Virus record (IMG/VR): IMGVR_UViG_3300040856_002504
Span: 1-28,903 of that record
Length of the DNA stretch: 28,903 bases
Strand: one strand, 5' to 3'
DNA from: a virus
Within the stretch, counting starts at the first letter, position 1. Every line of letters starts with the position of its first letter. Shown here piece after piece: positions 16,954-28,903 of the stretch. Made by a program: the position numbers and the translations under genes. The notes below the pieces were generated by a model. That model made no database searches. It saw only the letters and a list, made by a program, of their open reading frames with translations, and was not told the DNA's origin.

Positions 16954-18975
16954 ATGATAGAATCAGTAGACCCAAACGAAAAAGGTGGTGGAAAGAAGAA
17001 AAAAGAGAACAATAGTTCAAGAACACCAGTACTTGATAACTTTTCAAGAGACCTGGTAAAACTAGCCTCTGAAGGTAAACTCGACCCTGTTGTGGGAAGA
17101 GAAAGAGAAATAACAAGAATTGCGCAGATTCTTTCAAGACGGAAAAAAAATAACCCCATTATTATTGGTGAACCTGGTTGTGGTAAAACAGCAATCGTTG
17201 AAGGTTTGGCAATGAAAATTTTTGAGGGTGACTGTCCCCAAAATCTGTGTGACAAAAGAATCGTGTCTTTGGACATGACCTCAATTGTTGCCGGAACAAA
17301 ATACAGAGGTCAGTTTGAAGAACGTATGAAAGTTATCTTAGACGAACTTCAAGATAATCATGACATTATTGTTTTCATTGACGAAATCCACACAATCATT
17401 GGTGCAGGTAATACTTCGGGTTCATTAGACGCATCTAATATCTTTAAACCCGCTTTGGCCAGAGGTGAGGTACAATGTATTGGTGCGACCACTTTGGATG
17501 AATACCGTGAAAACATTGAAAAGGACGGGGCATTAGAAAGAAGGTTCCAAAAGGTAATGGTTGATGGTGCAACACATGAGGAGACTATGGAGATTCTTGA
17601 AAACCTAAAATCTCGTTATGAAGACCACCACAAAGTAAAATACACTAAAGAATCATTGGAGGCTTGTGTTAGTTTGGCAGGAAGATACATTACCGACCGT
17701 GAATTCCCTGATAAGGCTATCGACGTAATGGATGAGGTCGGTGCTCGTGCCCAAATTAACGTGATACTACCCCCTGTTATTGAGGAACTTCGTAGTAAGG
17801 CTCTTGAAATAAAAGAAAAGAAAATTCAGGTAGTTAAGAGTCAAAAATACGAAGAGGCTGCCAATCTTCGTGACCAAGAAAGAAAGATTATTGATAAACT
17901 TGAATACGAAAAACTTAAGTTCGAATCTGAAAAAGATGAAAAGAGAAAAGATATCACGGAGGAAATGGTTTATGAGGTAGTTTCTACAATGACAAAAATC
18001 CCTCTATCAAAACTTAGTAGTGACGATAAAGAGTCTTTGTTGGATTTAGAGTCTAATCTAAACGGAAATGTTATTGGTCAAGAAGACGCCGTTAGAACTA
18101 TCTCCAAGGCAATCAGACGTAATCGGGTAGGTATAAAAGACCCGAATCGTCCAATTGGTTCCTTTATCTTTTTGGGTTCAACAGGTATTGGTAAGACTCA
18201 CTTAGCAAAACAATTGGCAAAAGAGATTTTTGGTGATGAAGAGTCACTTATCCGTATGGATATGTCTGAATATCAGGAAAAACACTCTATGAGTCGTCTT
18301 ATCGGTTCCCCTCCGGGTTACGTAGGTTATGACCAAGGTGGACAACTTACCGAAGCAGTCAAGAATAAACCATATTCTGTTGTATTGTTTGATGAGATTG
18401 AGAAGGCCAACAAAGATATCTTCTCAATCCTTCTACAAATGATGGATGATGGTCACCTGACAGATTCTTTTGGACGAAAGATTAATTTCCGTAACTGTCT
18501 TATTATTATGACATCAAACTTGGGAGTGAAAAAACTTCAGGACTTTGGTACCGGTGTTGGTTTTGATACTGCAACTCGTATTTCAAATAACGAAGCGATG
18601 AAAAAATCACTATTAGAAAAAGAGTTGAAGAACCACTTCACCCCTGAGTTTCTTAACCGTGTAGATGAGGTGGTTGTTTTTAATCCCCTCAGAGAAAACG
18701 AAGTGGAACAAATCGTGGAGATTGAACTTTCAAAACTTGACCGTAGACTTGTTAAGTTGGGTTACAACATTACAGTTGAACCGAAAGTTAAGAAGTTCCT
18801 GTCTGAAGTTGGTTTTGATGAGAAGTACGGTGCGCGTCCTATCAAACGAGCTATTCAAGAAAAGATTGAAGACCTTATCTCTGAAGAGGTATTAAGGGGA
18901 ACCATCTCAGAAGGTAAACCCTACAAACTTAGACTGAAAGGTAAAGAAGAGGTAGTTGTAATTAAGGGGAGATAA
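16954..18975 (+). CDS. clpC: ClpC/ClpA-type AAA+ unfoldase lacking the N-domain
   Basis: This 673-residue protein has two AAA+ modules. D1: Walker A GEPGCGKT (72-79), pore loop GTKYRG (114-119), Walker B FIDE (141-144), Arg finger ERRF (195-198). A middle domain with a UVR motif (about 285-312, KSQKYEEAANLRDQERK) marks it as ClpC-like. D2: Walker A GSTGIGKT (408-415), pore loop GYVG (455-458), Walker B LFDE (478-481). VGF (535-537) sits where ClpC/ClpA carry the ClpP-docking tripeptide. All catalytic motifs look intact. The usual ClpC N-domain (about 145 residues) is replaced by a 25-residue Lys/Gly tail. It probably unfolds substrates for host ClpP; no phage ClpP is in view. Last gene of the operon. 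Confidence 0.93.
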   Translation: MIESVDPNEKGGGKKKKENNSSRTPVLDNFSRDLVKLASEGKLDPVVGREREITRIAQILSRRKKNNPIIIGEPGCGKTAIVEGLAMKIFEGDCPQNLCDKRIVSLDMTSIVAGTKYRGQFEERMKVILDELQDNHDIIVFIDEIHTIIGAGNTSGSLDASNIFKPALARGEVQCIGATTLDEYRENIEKDGALERRFQKVMVDGATHEETMEILENLKSRYEDHHKVKYTKESLEACVSLAGRYITDREFPDKAIDVMDEVGARAQINVILPPVIEELRSKALEIKEKKIQVVKSQKYEEAANLRDQERKIIDKLEYEKLKFESEKDEKRKDITEEMVYEVVSTMTKIPLSKLSSDDKESLLDLESNLNGNVIGQEDAVRTISKAIRRNRVGIKDPNRPIGSFIFLGSTGIGKTHLAKQLAKEIFGDEESLIRMDMSEYQEKHSMSRLIGSPPGYVGYDQGGQLTEAVKNKPYSVVLFDEIEKANKDIFSILLQMMDDGHLTDSFGRKINFRNCLIIMTSNLGVKKLQDFGTGVGFDTATRISNNEAMKKSLLEKELKNHFTPEFLNRVDEVVVFNPLRENEVEQIVEIELSKLDRRLVKLGYNITVEPKVKKFLSEVGFDEKYGARPIKRAIQEKIEDLISEEVLRGTISEGKPYKLRLKGKEEVVVIKGR

Positions 18976-18991: not shown

Positions 18992-19023
18992 TTTGGTTTA
19001 TTGTAAAGTTTTATGTATATTTG
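18992..19023 (+). promoter_or_regulatory. Bacteroidetes-type promoter of the peptidase gene
   Basis: TTTG (18992-18995) and TATATTTG (19016-19023) are separated by 20 bases. The box ends 18 bases before the ATG at 19042, which rules out the TTG at 19021 as the start. Confidence 0.75.
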
Positions 19024-19041
19024 TATAACAATAAACACACA

Positions 19042-20121
19042 ATGAACAACGAACAACTCACCCGTCTCAAAGAAGTCCTCTCAGTCCCTACCAAAACCTA
19101 TAAGGAGGACGGTATGGTTGAGTACATCTGTAAAGTACTTGATACCATCGACGGAGTCACGTATTATACAGATGGGATGAACAATGTGTATGCAACTAAG
19201 GGTTCACTTTCTGAAGGTGATTACTATCCTATGTTTATTGCGCATACCGATACGGTTCACGAGTTAGTTGATGAAATTGTTGTTGAGGAAGAGATGCTTG
19301 AAAAACCCCCTACCTTTGGTCGGACGTTTACTGAAGAACTTAACTTGTCATTGAAGGGATACACACCACACGGAAACCCAACAGGTATCGGAGGTGATGA
19401 TAAATGTGGGGTTTTTCTTGCTCTCGAACTCCTCCGTGTTCTTAATACGGTTAAGGTAGGTCTTTTTGTTTCTGAAGAGACTGGTTGTCATGGTTCAAAG
19501 GAGTGTGACGTAGATTTCTTGAAGGATGTGGGTTACGCTGTTCAGTTCGATGCACCAGGTAATCACTTGGTTACTGAAGTGTGTTCAGGTACACGATTGT
19601 TTGAGGACGGTGGTGACTTCATCAGTCGTATTAAACCTGTGTTTGAACGTTCTATGGGTGTTTCCCCATACCTTCAGTCACACCCCTACACTGACGTATC
19701 ACAAATCAAACAAAAGGGTGATTTCTCTTGTATTAACTTCTCTTGTGGTTACTACAATATGCATACCGCAAATGAGTTTGTTGTGGTAAAGGACGTGGAG
19801 GACGCTTTTAACTTGGCACTTAATGTGGTTAACGAATTGGGTTTTGAAAAGTACGATTACACTTACGTAAAACCTAACTACTCAAACTACGGTCAGGGTT
19901 CTTTGTTCACTAATTATCCCGATGATGATTACGATGATTATGAATACGACTACAAAGAGTCTGATTGGGTTGATGGTGACAACCACTACTTTCACATCGG
20001 TGAGGATGAGATTGAAATTGAGTCTAAGACTACTGGTGATGTAATCTCTTTGAACCTACGAGATATGGGTGAGTTGTATCTCCTTATTCGGGAACGTTTG
20101 TTGGAAAACGAGGAGATTTAA
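19042..20121 (+). CDS. M20-family metallopeptidase, peptidase T-like
   Basis: The 359-residue product shows the two-zinc M20 peptidase signature in order: AHTDTVH (H68, D70), IGGDDKCG (bridging Asp 119 or 120), SEETG (general base E145, zinc ligand E146), QFDAPG (D170) and NMHTANEF (H241). Peptidase T and related enzymes cleave tripeptides or short peptides made by ATP-dependent proteases, in the cytoplasm. No signal peptide is seen. The C-terminus carries an added Asp/Tyr-rich stretch (about 290-310, DDDYDDYEYDYKESDW) and a tail not needed in the family. It follows the Clp unit but has its own promoter, and converges with the minus-strand gene, overlapping by 4 bases without a terminator. 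Substrate preference is inferred. Confidence 0.85.
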   Translation: MNNEQLTRLKEVLSVPTKTYKEDGMVEYICKVLDTIDGVTYYTDGMNNVYATKGSLSEGDYYPMFIAHTDTVHELVDEIVVEEEMLEKPPTFGRTFTEELNLSLKGYTPHGNPTGIGGDDKCGVFLALELLRVLNTVKVGLFVSEETGCHGSKECDVDFLKDVGYAVQFDAPGNHLVTEVCSGTRLFEDGGDFISRIKPVFERSMGVSPYLQSHPYTDVSQIKQKGDFSCINFSCGYYNMHTANEFVVVKDVEDAFNLALNVVNELGFEKYDYTYVKPNYSNYGQGSLFTNYPDDDYDDYEYDYKESDWVDGDNHYFHIGEDEIEIESKTTGDVISLNLRDMGELYLLIRERLLENEEI

Positions 20122-23484: not shown

Positions 23485-24039
23485 ATGTATAAACTACTCA
23501 TCATCCCTCTTACGTTAATTTCATTCACCTCAATTTCACAAATTACTTGGAATTGTTATACAGAAGATGAATACGGTAACACCGTAAAGATTGATTGTGA
23601 CGGGCATATACCAACACCTGTCTTTACAGGAAATATTGATTCACTGTGTTGGGAAATGGAGAAACGGTTTGTTAATACTCTTAATGAATGGAGACGTAAT
23701 CATGGTATCCACGAGTTAGAATATGATGATGATATGGAATCTCTACTAACAGTGCCACATAATGAATGGCAGGTTAATAAAGGTCTTATCGCGCATGGTG
23801 AGGATGGTCGTTCACTTTCTGAAATCTCACGTAGTCGTGGATTTACCGGTGTTGGAGAATGTGTAGCATACAATTATAGGTCTGATATGGGTGAGGTATC
23901 ACAATTCTTCATTCAATATAAGAAAAGTAAACCACATTGGGAAATTTTAACTAGTACAGATTACCATTACATTTCTGTTTCTGTCCTATACGACCAAGAA
24001 AAAAATCGATATTATTCTACAGTAAATGTTCGTTGGTGA
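23485..24039 (+). CDS. Secreted CAP-domain (SCP/PR-1-like) protein
   Basis: This 184-residue protein has a signal peptide (MYKLLIIPLTLISFTSIS, cleavage near Q19) and a CAP domain. The helix RFVNTLNEWRRNHGIHELEY (about 61-80) matches the bacterial CAP start (LxxxNxxRxxxGxxxL). Family-type His and Glu positions are H104 (LIAHG), E125 (GECVAYN) and H151 (PHWEILTS). The domain ends with TDYHYISVSVLYDQEKNRYYSTVNV, like the family's (GV)xxxxxxYYxVxxF. Two extra Cys sit before the domain. CAP proteins are exported and bind cell-surface lipids or act in other ways; a phage role is not known. It has its own host-type promoter just upstream of the tmRNA. Recent capture from the host is plausible. Confidence 0.82.
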   Translation: MYKLLIIPLTLISFTSISQITWNCYTEDEYGNTVKIDCDGHIPTPVFTGNIDSLCWEMEKRFVNTLNEWRRNHGIHELEYDDDMESLLTVPHNEWQVNKGLIAHGEDGRSLSEISRSRGFTGVGECVAYNYRSDMGEVSQFFIQYKKSKPHWEILTSTDYHYISVSVLYDQEKNRYYSTVNVRW

Positions 24040-24040
24040 G

Positions 24041-24071
24041 TTGTTTTATTAAAGAATAATATTTATCTTTG
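24041..24071 (+). promoter_or_regulatory. Bacteroidetes-type promoter of the tmRNA
   Basis: TTG (24041-24043), 20 bases, TATCTTTG (24064-24071). The mature 5' end at 24091 is 20 bases past the box, leaving a short leader for RNase P to remove. The -33 element starts just after the CAP stop codon. Confidence 0.72.
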
Positions 24072-24090
24072 TGGTGTTCTTTGAAAATAT

Positions 24091-24475
24091 GGGGGCGTTT
24101 TTGGATTTGACTGGTACAGTCAGGCACAGAGTGCACGTAGTGAGAGGTTACCTATCACTTTAATCCACGGTTACAATTTTTATACGGCGACGTTATCGAA
24201 AACCTTCAGGCTGTCGGATTAGTCCGCACTGAAGAGGTTTACGCAGCCTAAGGCTCCGTTTACCGCAGGTCGGTCAGGACATATACCTATGAACAGAAGT
24301 CCGTTGTTGTGGTGGAGAAATGACTAAACCCTAAATTGAGTCATACATCTGTTGGTGGTAAATGATGTTAACTTGAACCACATATTTCGGATTGTTGAGA
24401 ATCAATAATGACCTAAACGTGTAGTACTCTCTGTTTGGGGTATTCAGGACCTGGGTTCGACTCCCAGCGCTTCCA
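24091..24475 (+). ncRNA. ssrA: tmRNA (transfer-messenger RNA)
   Basis: The ends form an alanine tRNA-like domain. The acceptor 5' GGGGGCG (24091-24097) pairs with CGCTTCC (24468-24474), with G-U at pair 3 as in tRNA-Ala identity and another at pair 4; A24475 is the discriminator. T arm: CTGGG / CCCAG around TTCGACT (24451-24467). The 5' TTTTGGATTTGAC and 3' CTAAACGTGTAGTA blocks are universal tmRNA landmarks. The region before the tag (AGTGAGAGG...CACTTTAATC) follows the Bacteroidetes tmRNA layout. CCA is not encoded (CAA follows). The length of 385 is normal. Its product rescues stalled ribosomes with host SmpB and tags the nascent chain. It has its own promoter and terminator. Phage tmRNAs are known but rare. 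Confidence 0.96.
24186..24251 (+). other. Tag-peptide reading frame of the tmRNA
   Basis: By layout, the resume codon is GGC at 24186, as in other Bacteroidetes tmRNAs. The frame runs 21 codons to TAA at 24249-24251: it begins GDVIEN, continues through LQAVGLVR and ends TEEVYAA. The stop lies in the loop of a P5-like helix (AGCC-TAA-GGCT plus outer GGT/ACG pairs). Usual Bacteroidetes tags are about 9 residues ending ALAA. The other two frames stop without an Ala-Ala end. Codons 7-16 lie within a hairpin (24204-24234). Confidence 0.72.
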
Positions 24476-24480
24476 CAAAA

Positions 24481-24516
24481 AAAATCCCCTAATTGTTTTG
24501 GCAGTTAGGGGATTTT
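24481..24516 (+). terminator. Terminator of the tmRNA
   Basis: AAAATCCCCTAA (24481-24492) pairs perfectly with TTAGGGGATTTT (24505-24516), with a 12-base loop. It starts 5 bases after the mature 3' end. The loop contains the -33 TTTG of the next promoter. Confidence 0.92.
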
Positions 24517-24527
24517 TATTATCTTTG
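24497..24527 (+). promoter_or_regulatory. Bacteroidetes-type promoter overlapping the tmRNA terminator
   Basis: TTTG (24497-24500), in the terminator loop, is 19 bases before TATCTTTG (24520-24527). It drives the zinc-motif gene at 24558. Confidence 0.72.
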
Positions 24528-24557: not shown

Positions 24558-25136
24558 ATGACTCAAGAAGAAGTAATCAAAGAAGTACAGAACTACGAAG
24601 GAACCAACAACTTCATGAACTCACTCAAGCGAGGTCTGAAGAAATACGGTTCCCTCACCGAAAACCAAGCAGCGGCAGCCATTCGTGTTATCGAAGGTGC
24701 TCGTCGTCACGAACAATCACAAAAACGTATTGACATCAAATTGGTTGGTGATACCATTAAGATTGGTCGTAAAATTGCTCTCGGAATCAAAGAAGAATAC
24801 GGATTGGATTTCCACCCCATCCTCGTGGATGTCACCGCGGTAACCGCAATGACTGACCGAGCACTCCGACTCAAAGGTAAGTTGACCAAAGAAAATGGTG
24901 GAGTATGTCGTTGTTGTGGGAAAACCCTGACCGACGAGATGTCTCAGGTTACCGGTATTGGTCCAGTATGTGCAAAATACGTTGGTGTGGAACACCCAAA
25001 ATCTAAGAACGATGTGGAAAAGTTCAAGGAGGATATGTCAAATAAAATTGACGAAATTGGTGAGTTTGAGTTTTGGATTCCCAAACGAGCCGTCATCAAG
25101 TGGGACGGAATGGGAGGTGTTATGTTGAGAATGTGA
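24558..25136 (+). CDS. DUF6011-like zinc-motif protein
   Basis: This 192-residue protein has an N-terminal helical part with FMNSLKRGLKKYGSLTENQA (about residues 19-38), a pattern seen in many phage and plasmid proteins, and a zinc-knuckle-like block CRCCGKTLTDEMSQVTGIGP followed by VCAKYVG (C117, C120, C138; a fourth ligand is not certain). This C-x-x-C-G-x-x-L-T-D...S...G-x-G-P-x-C pattern is that of DUF6011, a short domain of unknown function often found in replication-associated or DNA-binding phage proteins. The start is the ATG at 24558. Base composition is richer in GC than its neighbours, including more C-ending codons. It has its own promoter and terminator. Function unknown. Confidence 0.78.
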   Translation: MTQEEVIKEVQNYEGTNNFMNSLKRGLKKYGSLTENQAAAAIRVIEGARRHEQSQKRIDIKLVGDTIKIGRKIALGIKEEYGLDFHPILVDVTAVTAMTDRALRLKGKLTKENGGVCRCCGKTLTDEMSQVTGIGPVCAKYVGVEHPKSKNDVEKFKEDMSNKIDEIGEFEFWIPKRAVIKWDGMGGVMLRM

Positions 25137-26082: not shown

Positions 26083-28903
26083 ATGATTTTTAAATACTTA
26101 AAACAGACACTCAGTGTCTTATTCTTACTTCCTGTGCTCTTTTTTAGTGCAGAAGTAAAATCACAGTGCGATGTTTTTATAGAACCTGGCTCTGTAAATG
26201 TGATAGACAACGGTAGTGGTGTTAAATTTGAGTTTCAAATAACAAATAACTCAGGTGTAGATTGGTATGGTGACGATTTAAAGTTATTTTGGTCACTCAA
26301 TTCAAGTGTACCTATATGGAACATCGACTACACCGATAATACTGCTTCACCACCTATTGCTGATGGTGAAACACGAACAATAAAAACCCCATGGTTTGAT
26401 TTTCCTAACCTACCTTCTTGGTTTCCTGAAGACCCAGGACCTGGTGGTGCGTTAGACGATAACTGGGTGGAAGCTTACGAATGGCCGTATTGGTCGGTAA
26501 CTCCTAATGGTTTTGATGGTACGTGGTCACAATTTAACCTTAGATTAGGAAGTTGTGGATTGGCCGATGGTGCGTGGGTTTATAATTCAGATGGTACACC
26601 ATATTACGGTCCATTTGATAGTGAATGTCCTGATGTAAATGAAGATGCGTTATGTGATTGTGACGTGGATTTTATCGGATTTGACCCAGTAACATATGAC
26701 GCTAGTATCGCAGTTATATCTCATTGGAACTGTGGTCAACCTCTAAATAGTGGTTCTCAGTCCGCGGAAATGGACCATGTAAATATGATACAAATTGGTG
26801 CTCATATACCAGGTTGGGATTACAGTTGGGGTTGTACCGCGGCTGAATATCATGTTGGTTGGACATGGGATAATCCGATACCTGGTTTTAATGAATATTA
26901 TGCTGGTGACACAATTAACTATAATTTATTTAGTGATGAAACAACCTATGACGATTGTTTTGAATCTTTGTTACAGTCAGATACCTTATCATCGTGTTTA
27001 GAGGTAGTTCTGTGGCAAATAAATTACTCCCAAACCTATCATATGGGTGATTTTCCTGACGGGTGGGCAGCAACTTGTGGTACATGTAATGACCAAACAC
27101 AAATGTATCCTGACATTTCTATGAATTTAAATTCGTTAAATGTATGTGAAGCACCACCACCTTTATATCCAGGTTGTATAGACCCTGAAGCGGAAAATTA
27201 TGATGAAACTGCAGATTTTGATGATGGTTCATGTGATTACCCACCTATTTTTGGTTGTACAAACCCTGTCGCTTGTAATTATGATTCTAACGCAACACAA
27301 AATGACGGGTCTTGTGTAACTTGTGAAAATACCTATGAAGAAGGAGTTGCAGGTTGTGGACAAAGTACATGGGAATGGTATATCACTCTTTTTGATTGTA
27401 ACCCAGGGTGTACTGACCCCTCAGCATCAAACTACGACCCTGAAGCCGAAAACGATGATGGTAGTTGTGAATATCTATCTCCTGATGCAGGCGCTAAGGT
27501 TAACACTTTAAACACTCTTTGTATTGATGGTCAACCATCTAATTTGGTTAATATTGTAGTGAGTAATTTCAACACAGGAGGTTTTAACGCTACAGATACT
27601 TTATTTAATTATTGTGTAGAAGTACCTGAATTAGGTCTTGATAGTTGTTTAAATGGTTATTTGTTTGGTGGTAGTTGGATTGAGCCAGGTGGGGGTCAAA
27701 TGATATGGCCAAATGTATATATACCTGATACAATACCTCAAATAACTGTAAATGTTTATTATGCTGAGGACGAAATAGAAGAGTATAGTTTTAATAACAC
27801 ATTTGTTTATCAAAACATATTTCAAGACACTGATGTTTGTATTATACCAGGTTGCACTGACCCCGAAGCTACTAACTACGACCCTGACGCAACAGAAGAT
27901 GATGGGAGTTGTGACTACTTTATTGATTTATCAATAGATAGTTTAAGTATAAATGAATTCTGTGATGAATTTACCCCTTACTGGGTACCAACAATACATC
28001 TATCTAATTTAAGTAATCAGACTATAGATGAATATTGTATTAAAGTACAAGTATTAGGTCAAACAAATGACACTTTATGTTTTAGTGGTACCGATTATTC
28101 GTTACCACCTTTTGGTACTCTTTCTTTTGATTGGCCGAATCCAATATATTCATATGGTACAATTAGTGTCCACGTATTAGATGTTAATGGTGAAAATCCA
28201 AGTCCTTTAATAGGTTATGGATTTGATGATAACTTATCTAATAATACTTTAGTTGTTGGGTTATCCAGTTTTACTATTAATTGTGATGTGTTAGGATGTA
28301 CTGACGATACAGCAAATAACTACAATCCTGACGCCAACGTAGATAACGGTTCTTGTACTTATGATATTACAGAATTAACTTATGTCGGTGCTGAATGTTT
28401 TGTGGATTGTGATGTAGATGGACCTTATTGGTATGTGGTCACGACTTGGACAAATACAGGAAATGTTGAAATAACTGATTTTTGTTCAGAATGGGACGTA
28501 ACAGGAGGACAGGGTGATGACATAATGTGTTTTAACGGTAGTCTATTACCTGGTGATACAACATCTCTTCAGTATGGTCCTTACAATGTTGATGTAGGTC
28601 TTATTGCATGGGCTTATGTGACAGAAATAAATGGGGTCACGTTTAACCCCCCATTAGAAAATTATGAAACATTATATTGTTTTGGTGAAGCTCAAGCAAG
28701 TTGTGTTTATGGTTGTATGGATGTGACGGCTAATAACTATAATCCTGATGCCGATTTTGATGATGGTTCTTGTACTTATGATGTCTTAGGTTGTACTGAC
28801 AATACTGCGAATAACTACAATCCTGACGCTAACGTAGATGATGGTTCTTGTACTTATGATGTATTAGGTTGTACTGACCCTGACGCTGAAAATTACAACC
28901 CTG
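26083..28903 (+). CDS. Secreted repeat protein or adhesin with GCTDP repeats (3' end cut by window)
   Basis: An open frame runs from the ATG at 26083 for 940 codons to the right edge. It starts with a signal peptide (MIFKYLKQTLSVLFLLPVLF, cleavage near SAEVKS-Q). A Trp/Asp-rich N-terminal region of about 340 residues follows, then repeats of the form GCTDPxAxNYxP...DDGSC (eight starts; see the repeat entry). Between the repeats are Ig/CARDB-like beta domains. Such Cys-paired repeats (probably Ca-binding, by the spaced Asp/Asn) occur in exported surface proteins of marine Flavobacteriia. Phage tail fibres are not exported by the Sec route, so the signal peptide is odd. It may serve surface display or exclusion, or reflect a captured host gene. 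Promoter type is late. Confidence 0.82.
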   Translation, partial: MIFKYLKQTLSVLFLLPVLFFSAEVKSQCDVFIEPGSVNVIDNGSGVKFEFQITNNSGVDWYGDDLKLFWSLNSSVPIWNIDYTDNTASPPIADGETRTIKTPWFDFPNLPSWFPEDPGPGGALDDNWVEAYEWPYWSVTPNGFDGTWSQFNLRLGSCGLADGAWVYNSDGTPYYGPFDSECPDVNEDALCDCDVDFIGFDPVTYDASIAVISHWNCGQPLNSGSQSAEMDHVNMIQIGAHIPGWDYSWGCTAAEYHVGWTWDNPIPGFNEYYAGDTINYNLFSDETTYDDCFESLLQSDTLSSCLEVVLWQINYSQTYHMGDFPDGWAATCGTCNDQTQMYPDISMNLNSLNVCEAPPPLYPGCIDPEAENYDETADFDDGSCDYPPIFGCTNPVACNYDSNATQNDGSCVTCENTYEEGVAGCGQSTWEWYITLFDCNPGCTDPSASNYDPEAENDDGSCEYLSPDAGAKVNTLNTLCIDGQPSNLVNIVVSNFNTGGFNATDTLFNYCVEVPELGLDSCLNGYLFGGSWIEPGGGQMIWPNVYIPDTIPQITVNVYYAEDEIEEYSFNNTFVYQNIFQDTDVCIIPGCTDPEATNYDPDATEDDGSCDYFIDLSIDSLSINEFCDEFTPYWVPTIHLSNLSNQTIDEYCIKVQVLGQTNDTLCFSGTDYSLPPFGTLSFDWPNPIYSYGTISVHVLDVNGENPSPLIGYGFDDNLSNNTLVVGLSSFTINCDVLGCTDDTANNYNPDANVDNGSCTYDITELTYVGAECFVDCDVDGPYWYVVTTWTNTGNVEITDFCSEWDVTGGQGDDIMCFNGSLLPGDTTSLQYGPYNVDVGLIAWAYVTEINGVTFNPPLENYETLYCFGEAQASCVYGCMDVTANNYNPDADFDDGSCTYDVLGCTDNTANNYNPDANVDDGSCTYDVLGCTDPDAENYNP
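27172..28903 (+). repeat. GCTDP / DDGSC protein repeats, eight starts
   Basis: Repeat units of about 23 residues begin near 27172, 27253, 27406, 27851, 28293, 28711, 28789 and 28867 (the last cut by the edge). Units 5-7 end DDGSCTYD or DNGSCTYD. The last three are adjacent and nearly identical at DNA level, suggesting recent expansion, whereas earlier ones are separated by Ig-like domains. Confidence 0.88.

Follow-up and report, generated by a model that had tools for sequence, protein, structure and literature searches.

A peptide-conserved family of long tmRNA tags in uncultured phages, linked to phage proteolysis genes

Phage-encoded tmRNAs as such are already known (PMC4131195, PMC9004378). 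The tmRNA genes of the mycobacteriophage Bxz1 group and of Bacillus phage G are listed in the tmRNA literature (PMC4131195), and for the methylophage Melnitz, a role in the tagging of host proteins for recycling has been suggested by its authors (PMC9004378). Among cultured flavophages, tmRNAs are reported for Cellulophaga phage Calle (PMC8776804) and Maribacter phage Panino (PMC11590407). Usually, phage tmRNAs are recorded merely as present. The tmRNA of Bxz1 reportedly has a long tag. Overall, the commonest tag length is 10 amino acids in a 2025 tmRNA database (PMC11915505). Bacteroidota host tags are similarly short, 9-10 residues and ending in A[LM]AA in 28 of the 30 tmRNAs compared, e.g., GENNYALAA and GESNYAMAA, in line with the figure of about nine residues given in the initial annotation. 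For the remaining two, the ARAGORN call was odd in one case and absent in the other.

The window, i.e., the whole stretch of 28,903 nucleotides analysed here, comes from IMG/VR as a linear virus record of 28.9 kb. It contains a T4-like head module, in which profiles for terminase, portal, head protein and prohead protease are matched. Its tmRNA (ssrA) gene is located at 24091..24478 on the plus strand and matches RF00023 with 98.4 bits (gathering score 47, E 1.5e-37). The match covers the model from end to end (1-374 of 374), and the tmRNA is thus intact at both ends, as had been proposed. The discriminator base is 24475; the next three letters are CAA, and the gene thus does not encode CCA. 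The covariance alignment runs through the four pseudoknots of the model, but its middle part is of low confidence (mean accuracy 0.59). ARAGORN, which is part of many annotation pipelines, makes no tmRNA call in the window and also misses many of the tmRNAs of the relatives. It is clear from an alignment of 24 members that structural selection acts on the tmRNA as a whole, as 31 of the 50 consensus pairs show two-sided compensatory changes. In the tRNA-like domain, there are T-arm pairs with 10 and 13 such changes, and the alanine-identity G-U at the third acceptor pair is present in all 24 members.

Judging from the surrounding signals, the tmRNA looks like a transcription unit of its own, because a promoter element and a boxA-like element lie upstream and a strong terminator downstream. 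The promoter-like TATCTTTG (24064..24071, plus strand) fits TAnnTTTG, which we take to be the Bacteroidota promoter consensus. Of 68 distinct relatives, 53 have TAnnTTTG at most 60 nt upstream of the tmRNA, where 5.8 would be expected, and this points to Bacteroidota hosts. The boxA-like GTTCTTTGA (24076..24084, plus strand), just 5' of the mature RNA, is shared by 63 of 67 distinct relatives, 14-18 nt ahead of the tmRNA 5' end, and may have a role in antitermination or processing. A similar element is also seen in a minority of the host leaders examined. The intrinsic terminator 3' of the tmRNA (24480..24517, plus strand) consists of a 17-pair stem with a T-rich tail. Directly upstream of the tmRNA, a CAP-domain protein (PF00188) that probably has a signal peptide is encoded at 23485-24039, while the conserved neighbour on the other side is a DUF6011 protein (24558..25136, plus strand; PF19474, 40 relatives). 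Positions 26083-28902 hold an open-ended frame for a large protein that looks secreted and contains GCTDPxAxNYxPxAxxDDGSC repeats.

The tag reading frame, GDVIENLQAVGLVRTEEVYAA followed by a TAA stop, lies at 24186..24251 on the plus strand. The resume codon, GGC at 24186, is taken from the covariance alignment, which gives the same frame as the initial annotation and no alternative one. The stop codon (24249-24251) sits, by inspection, in the loop of helix 5, which is formed by GGTTTACGCAGCC with GGCTCCGTTTACC (24236..24264, plus strand) according to inspection and a single-strand fold. Bacteroidota-type ssrA degrons have about nine residues and end in A[LM]AA, while the window tag has 21 residues and ends in VYAA. 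The claim of a long, unusual tag with a C-terminus unlike that of the host therefore holds, as the frame is confirmed and 28 of the 30 host tags differ from it.

Relatives were first fetched through the DUF6011 gene adjoining the tmRNA. Most of the longer contigs obtained in this way carry tmRNAs, and all of these have a 21-codon tag of the window kind. A wider set came from a pattern scan of IMG/VR for the 3' parts of tmRNAs; its counts are not frequencies, and it contains at least 114 loci of the tag family with at least 61 distinct tag DNAs and at least 51 peptides, all of 20-22 codons. Related forms of the 21-residue tag are common to dozens of uncultured phages, and the consensus is GN[VT][LIF]xK[LM]xx[VIL]GL[ILV]RxEExVxVA. 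The C-terminal residue is always Ala, the tags usually end in VA or AA, and the penultimate residue is mostly V. The proposal that VYAA represents a changed C-terminus is correct in that it differs from the host, but VYAA is only one variant, since most relatives end in VTVA, VAVA or AVVA. The ClpC proteins (see below) encoded on tag-bearing contigs are 58-89% identical to that of the window, and the tag family must therefore be old. A tblastn search with two tag variants against 50,697 records of cultured phages gave no match, a search in which a 21-residue query has little power. In three contigs, a related phage tmRNA has its T-loop interrupted by a group I intron (L147:1873-2098, L149:1873-2099 and L148:374-599; RF00028, about 86 bits). 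Introns at this site have already been described for the tmRNA genes of bacteria (PMC11915505).

Among the 53 distinct 21-codon tags, the resume codon is always GG[CA] and position -4 is always A. In E. coli, every change of the corresponding A86 dramatically lowers tmRNA activity (PMC2481249). Residues 1, 11 and 21 are invariant and residue 12 is changed only once. Sequence comparison indicates that selection on the tag region acts mainly at the peptide level, because dN/dS is low (about 0.25 in close pairs), the other two frames are closed (they contain stops in 50 and 51 of the 53 tags) and the hairpin discussed below is confined to one subclade. The whole-set pN/pS of 0.59 is below all 60 column-shuffled controls, if barely (the lowest control is 0.61). 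Two ideas about the peptide itself were rejected. The tag does not exceed its shuffles in helical hydrophobic moment, which speaks against an amphipathic helix, and when about 5000 open frames were scanned with a profile for phage proteins sharing the motif, the tags themselves and two weak matches were all that came up.

The tag frame of the window contains a hairpin at 24204..24234 on the plus strand. The pairing described in the initial annotation is possible, i.e., CTTCAG (24204-24209) with CTGAAG (24229-24234) and CGGA (24215-24218) with TCCG (24223-24226). The outer stem is complete in all 19 tags of the LQA type, where the paired bases hardly vary, but in only two of the 34 others. It is very unlikely that the region is conserved for this RNA structure with the peptide being incidental. 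Perfect as the stem is in the LQA-type tags, it is lost in 32 of the 34 others while the peptide core stays, and third codon positions are the most variable of the tag. Further, the fold of the tag region is ordinary and not better than shuffles at two standard deviations (z -1.36; 15 of 200 shuffles fold as well). As a conserved object, the hairpin is therefore ruled out outside the LQA subclade.

The hairpin was originally explained as a recent in-frame insertion of ten codons into a short tag. The frame indeed stays open when codons 7-16 are deleted, but any in-frame deletion of 30 nt in this region leaves it open. All relatives found have 20-22 codons, even those with a ClpC only 58% identical to that of the window, so if the tag was ever lengthened from a host-like one, this must have happened before the family as a whole arose. 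This explanation is not supported, because there is no member with a shorter tag among the matches listed, and we regard it as extremely improbable.

Upstream of the tmRNA by 5.1 kb and on the same strand, the window encodes a ClpC-type AAA+ unfoldase (16954..18975, plus strand; Pfam AAA, AAA_lid_9, AAA_2, ClpB_D2-small and UVR). From the Pfam matches and the alignment with host ClpC, it has two AAA+ modules and a UVR middle motif. The ClpP-docking loop is GVGF, and the form [VIL]GF is kept in all 27 phage ClpC sequences aligned. The N domain of ClpC binds adaptors. In the window protein, Clp_N has no Pfam match; the alignment to host ClpC starts just before the first AAA module, and the host N domain aligns to nothing. 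We therefore name the protein ClpC-like and not ClpC proper, as the N-terminal adaptor-binding domain is missing. It is 57-60% identical to Bacteroidota ClpC, and its closest cellular matches are from Bacteroidota, which also points to Bacteroidota hosts.

The tag and the unfoldase occur together. In a survey of 50 contigs, ClpC is found on all 46 tag-bearing contigs and on none of the four with other tags. In the first set, it is present on 26 of 27 contigs and missing only from G009, a fragment that has no full-length tmRNA match. When contigs were selected by ClpP, all nine with the window tag family proved to carry a ClpC, 67-78% identical to that of the window, while those with other long tags have either no ClpC or one that is about 55% identical. 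The tmRNA is always 3' of ClpC on the same strand, at 2.0-6.5 kb in 34 of 40 cases and at 21-26 kb in six. Contigs with both tag and ClpC are not independent events, and the linkage could reflect shared descent with a conserved gene order in one phage lineage instead of a functional pair. The initial annotation had raised the idea that a changed tag end sends proteins to a different protease. This idea gains support from the ClpC-type unfoldase in the window and on all surveyed contigs of the tag family, while the route itself is something that we infer. In two contigs, G075 and G096 (those of L214 and L265), ClpC appears as two separate matches with gaps of about 0.5 and 1.7 kb, possibly due to an intron or other insertion.

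Beside ClpC lies a gene for a peptidase-T-like metallopeptidase (19051..20121, plus strand, with a possible TTG start at 19021). It matches the peptidase family PHROG 4191 (E 1.8e-36) and the NCBIfam PepT models with E about 1e-7, which is below their cut-offs (31 bits versus 255); we call it peptidase-T-like only, as the curated PepT cut-off is not passed. The gene is next to ClpC in 20 of 22 tag-bearing contigs and in none of 12 others. Part of the tag-bearing contigs, including long ones near the window (G002, G022), also encode a phage ClpP, in which the Ser, His and Asp expected of the enzyme can be seen by sequence inspection. Head maturation does not call for ClpP, as a prohead protease of the T4 type (phrog_207) is encoded separately in the window. 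ClpP was not found on many large tag-bearing contigs, e.g., G060, G067 and G069, although contigs may be incomplete, and it was dropped as a universal member of the gene set. G163 carries a more distant ClpC (53%) and ClpP together with a short tag, DNAELAMAA, while G170, G172 and G174 have ClpC and ClpP but no full-length tmRNA match. These four contigs, together with the large tag-bearing contigs that lack ClpP, count against a strict pairing of tag, ClpC and ClpP. G170, G172 and G174 (L562, L566, L570) form a second phage group, in which the ClpC-like protein and ClpP are encoded a few kb apart.

The constant company of the tag and the phage unfoldase suggests a private tag-and-destroy pathway. 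An unfoldase without an adaptor-binding N domain needs another route to its substrates, and a dedicated C-terminal tag is one. We suggest, with the chances evenly balanced, that the phage tmRNA provides a long private degron and works with host SmpB, phage ClpC and a phage or host ClpP. In place of the short host tag, the phage tmRNA would supply a phage-specific one of 21 residues. Together with SmpB, assumed to be that of the host, this tmRNA would free ribosomes that stall in the course of infection and add the tag to the nascent chain. Recognition of the tag would then fall to the phage ClpC-type unfoldase, with its docking loop kept and no N domain, which would deliver the chain to ClpP. 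Some relatives, close ones of the window among them, encode this ClpP themselves, whereas others would use that of the host. Finally, the peptidase-T-like enzyme would break the peptides down to amino acids, to be used in phage synthesis. While the data show the tmRNA, its frame, the conserved peptide and the linkage of the genes, binding of the tag by ClpC, degradation of the tagged chain and the role in recycling are what we infer here.

Tags that end in Ala resemble those read by host proteases, and all tags of the family do so, usually with VA or AA. It can therefore be asked if host ClpXP degrades the tag through its small hydrophobic C-terminal residues, with the rest being a spacer or a host-adaptor site and ClpC serving elsewhere. 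That the phage depends on host parts, as none of the 16 phage contigs searched encodes SmpB, would fit with this. However, a spacer need not keep G11, L12 and R14, the penultimate residue is mostly V and not the AA of the host, and the link to the N-less phage ClpC would be left unexplained, making this explanation unlikely. In E. coli, where ClpXP, ClpAP and Lon act on the tags, survival is supported even by a tag that is deficient in degradation (PMC8012679), and rescue by itself could thus be enough. The tag might then be a stabilising or retargeting label, by which the phage outcompetes the host tmRNA and the rescued chains escape host proteases or meet a phage factor. The C-terminus is indeed different from that of the host, but its residues are still small and hydrophobic, and the constant linkage to the unfoldase and the peptidase points to proteolysis; a label of this kind is thus quite improbable.

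Taken more broadly, the private degradation pathway would mean that a widespread lineage of large Bacteroidota phages has its own branch of trans-translation and proteolysis, comprising a tmRNA-encoded degron, an adaptor-free ClpC-like unfoldase, a linked peptidase and, in some, ClpP, and that protein turnover in infected cells is under phage control. This wider picture is tentative, and we place it somewhat below an even chance. The locus is real and conserved, and its interest lies in a peptide-conserved tag family linked to phage proteolysis genes and not in a hairpin insertion. Neither the tag family nor its linkage to ClpC is described in the open-access literature searched, which is incomplete. 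With a tag that is kept as a peptide among widely diverged phages and linked to genes for an unfoldase and a peptidase, the purpose of phage tmRNAs becomes directly testable. If the tag and the unfoldase belong together, this would add a degron-protease pair of a new kind, which might serve for targeted protein degradation in Bacteroidota, and it would account for the control that such phages have over rescue and recycling in infection.

Compared with the chromosomal tmRNA of Bacteroidota (GENNYALAA type), the phage tmRNA is likewise in one piece, with a Gly resume codon, the stop in helix 5 and an alanine-type acceptor. However, the phage tags have 20-22 residues and end in VxVA or VYAA, whereas those of the host have 9-10 and end in A[LM]AA (28/30), and there is no sequence likeness past the first residues. 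The tmRNA gene is phage-encoded as in the Bxz1 group and Bacillus phage G, but hosts and tag sequences differ. To our knowledge, no ClpC linkage is known for the tmRNAs of these phages. Melnitz is another tmRNA-bearing phage, a marine myophage; its tmRNA is permuted, in two pieces and accompanied by a riboswitch, unlike the one-piece tmRNA of the window, and no long conserved tag or unfoldase is reported in the text consulted (PMC9004378). A permuted tmRNA (RF04321, 54 bits) is also present at L152:2470-2738 in the crAss-like phage cr130_1. Two more conserved long-tag types exist in large ClpP-encoding phages, GENPF[FY]xLAGLxP..EVALAA with 23-24 residues and GKxxVWDAINxFG..EVEYAYAA with 25 (loci L581, L583, L586, L587 and L596, L599-L603). 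The GENPF[FY] tags fit the window tag profile better than most of their own shuffles; nevertheless, both types differ from the window tag in sequence, and no ClpC at least 60% identical to that of the window is found on their contigs. Finally, while the phage unfoldase is unlike Bacteroidota ClpC in having no N-terminal domain, the two share both AAA modules, the UVR motif and the ClpP-docking loop, at 57-60% identity.
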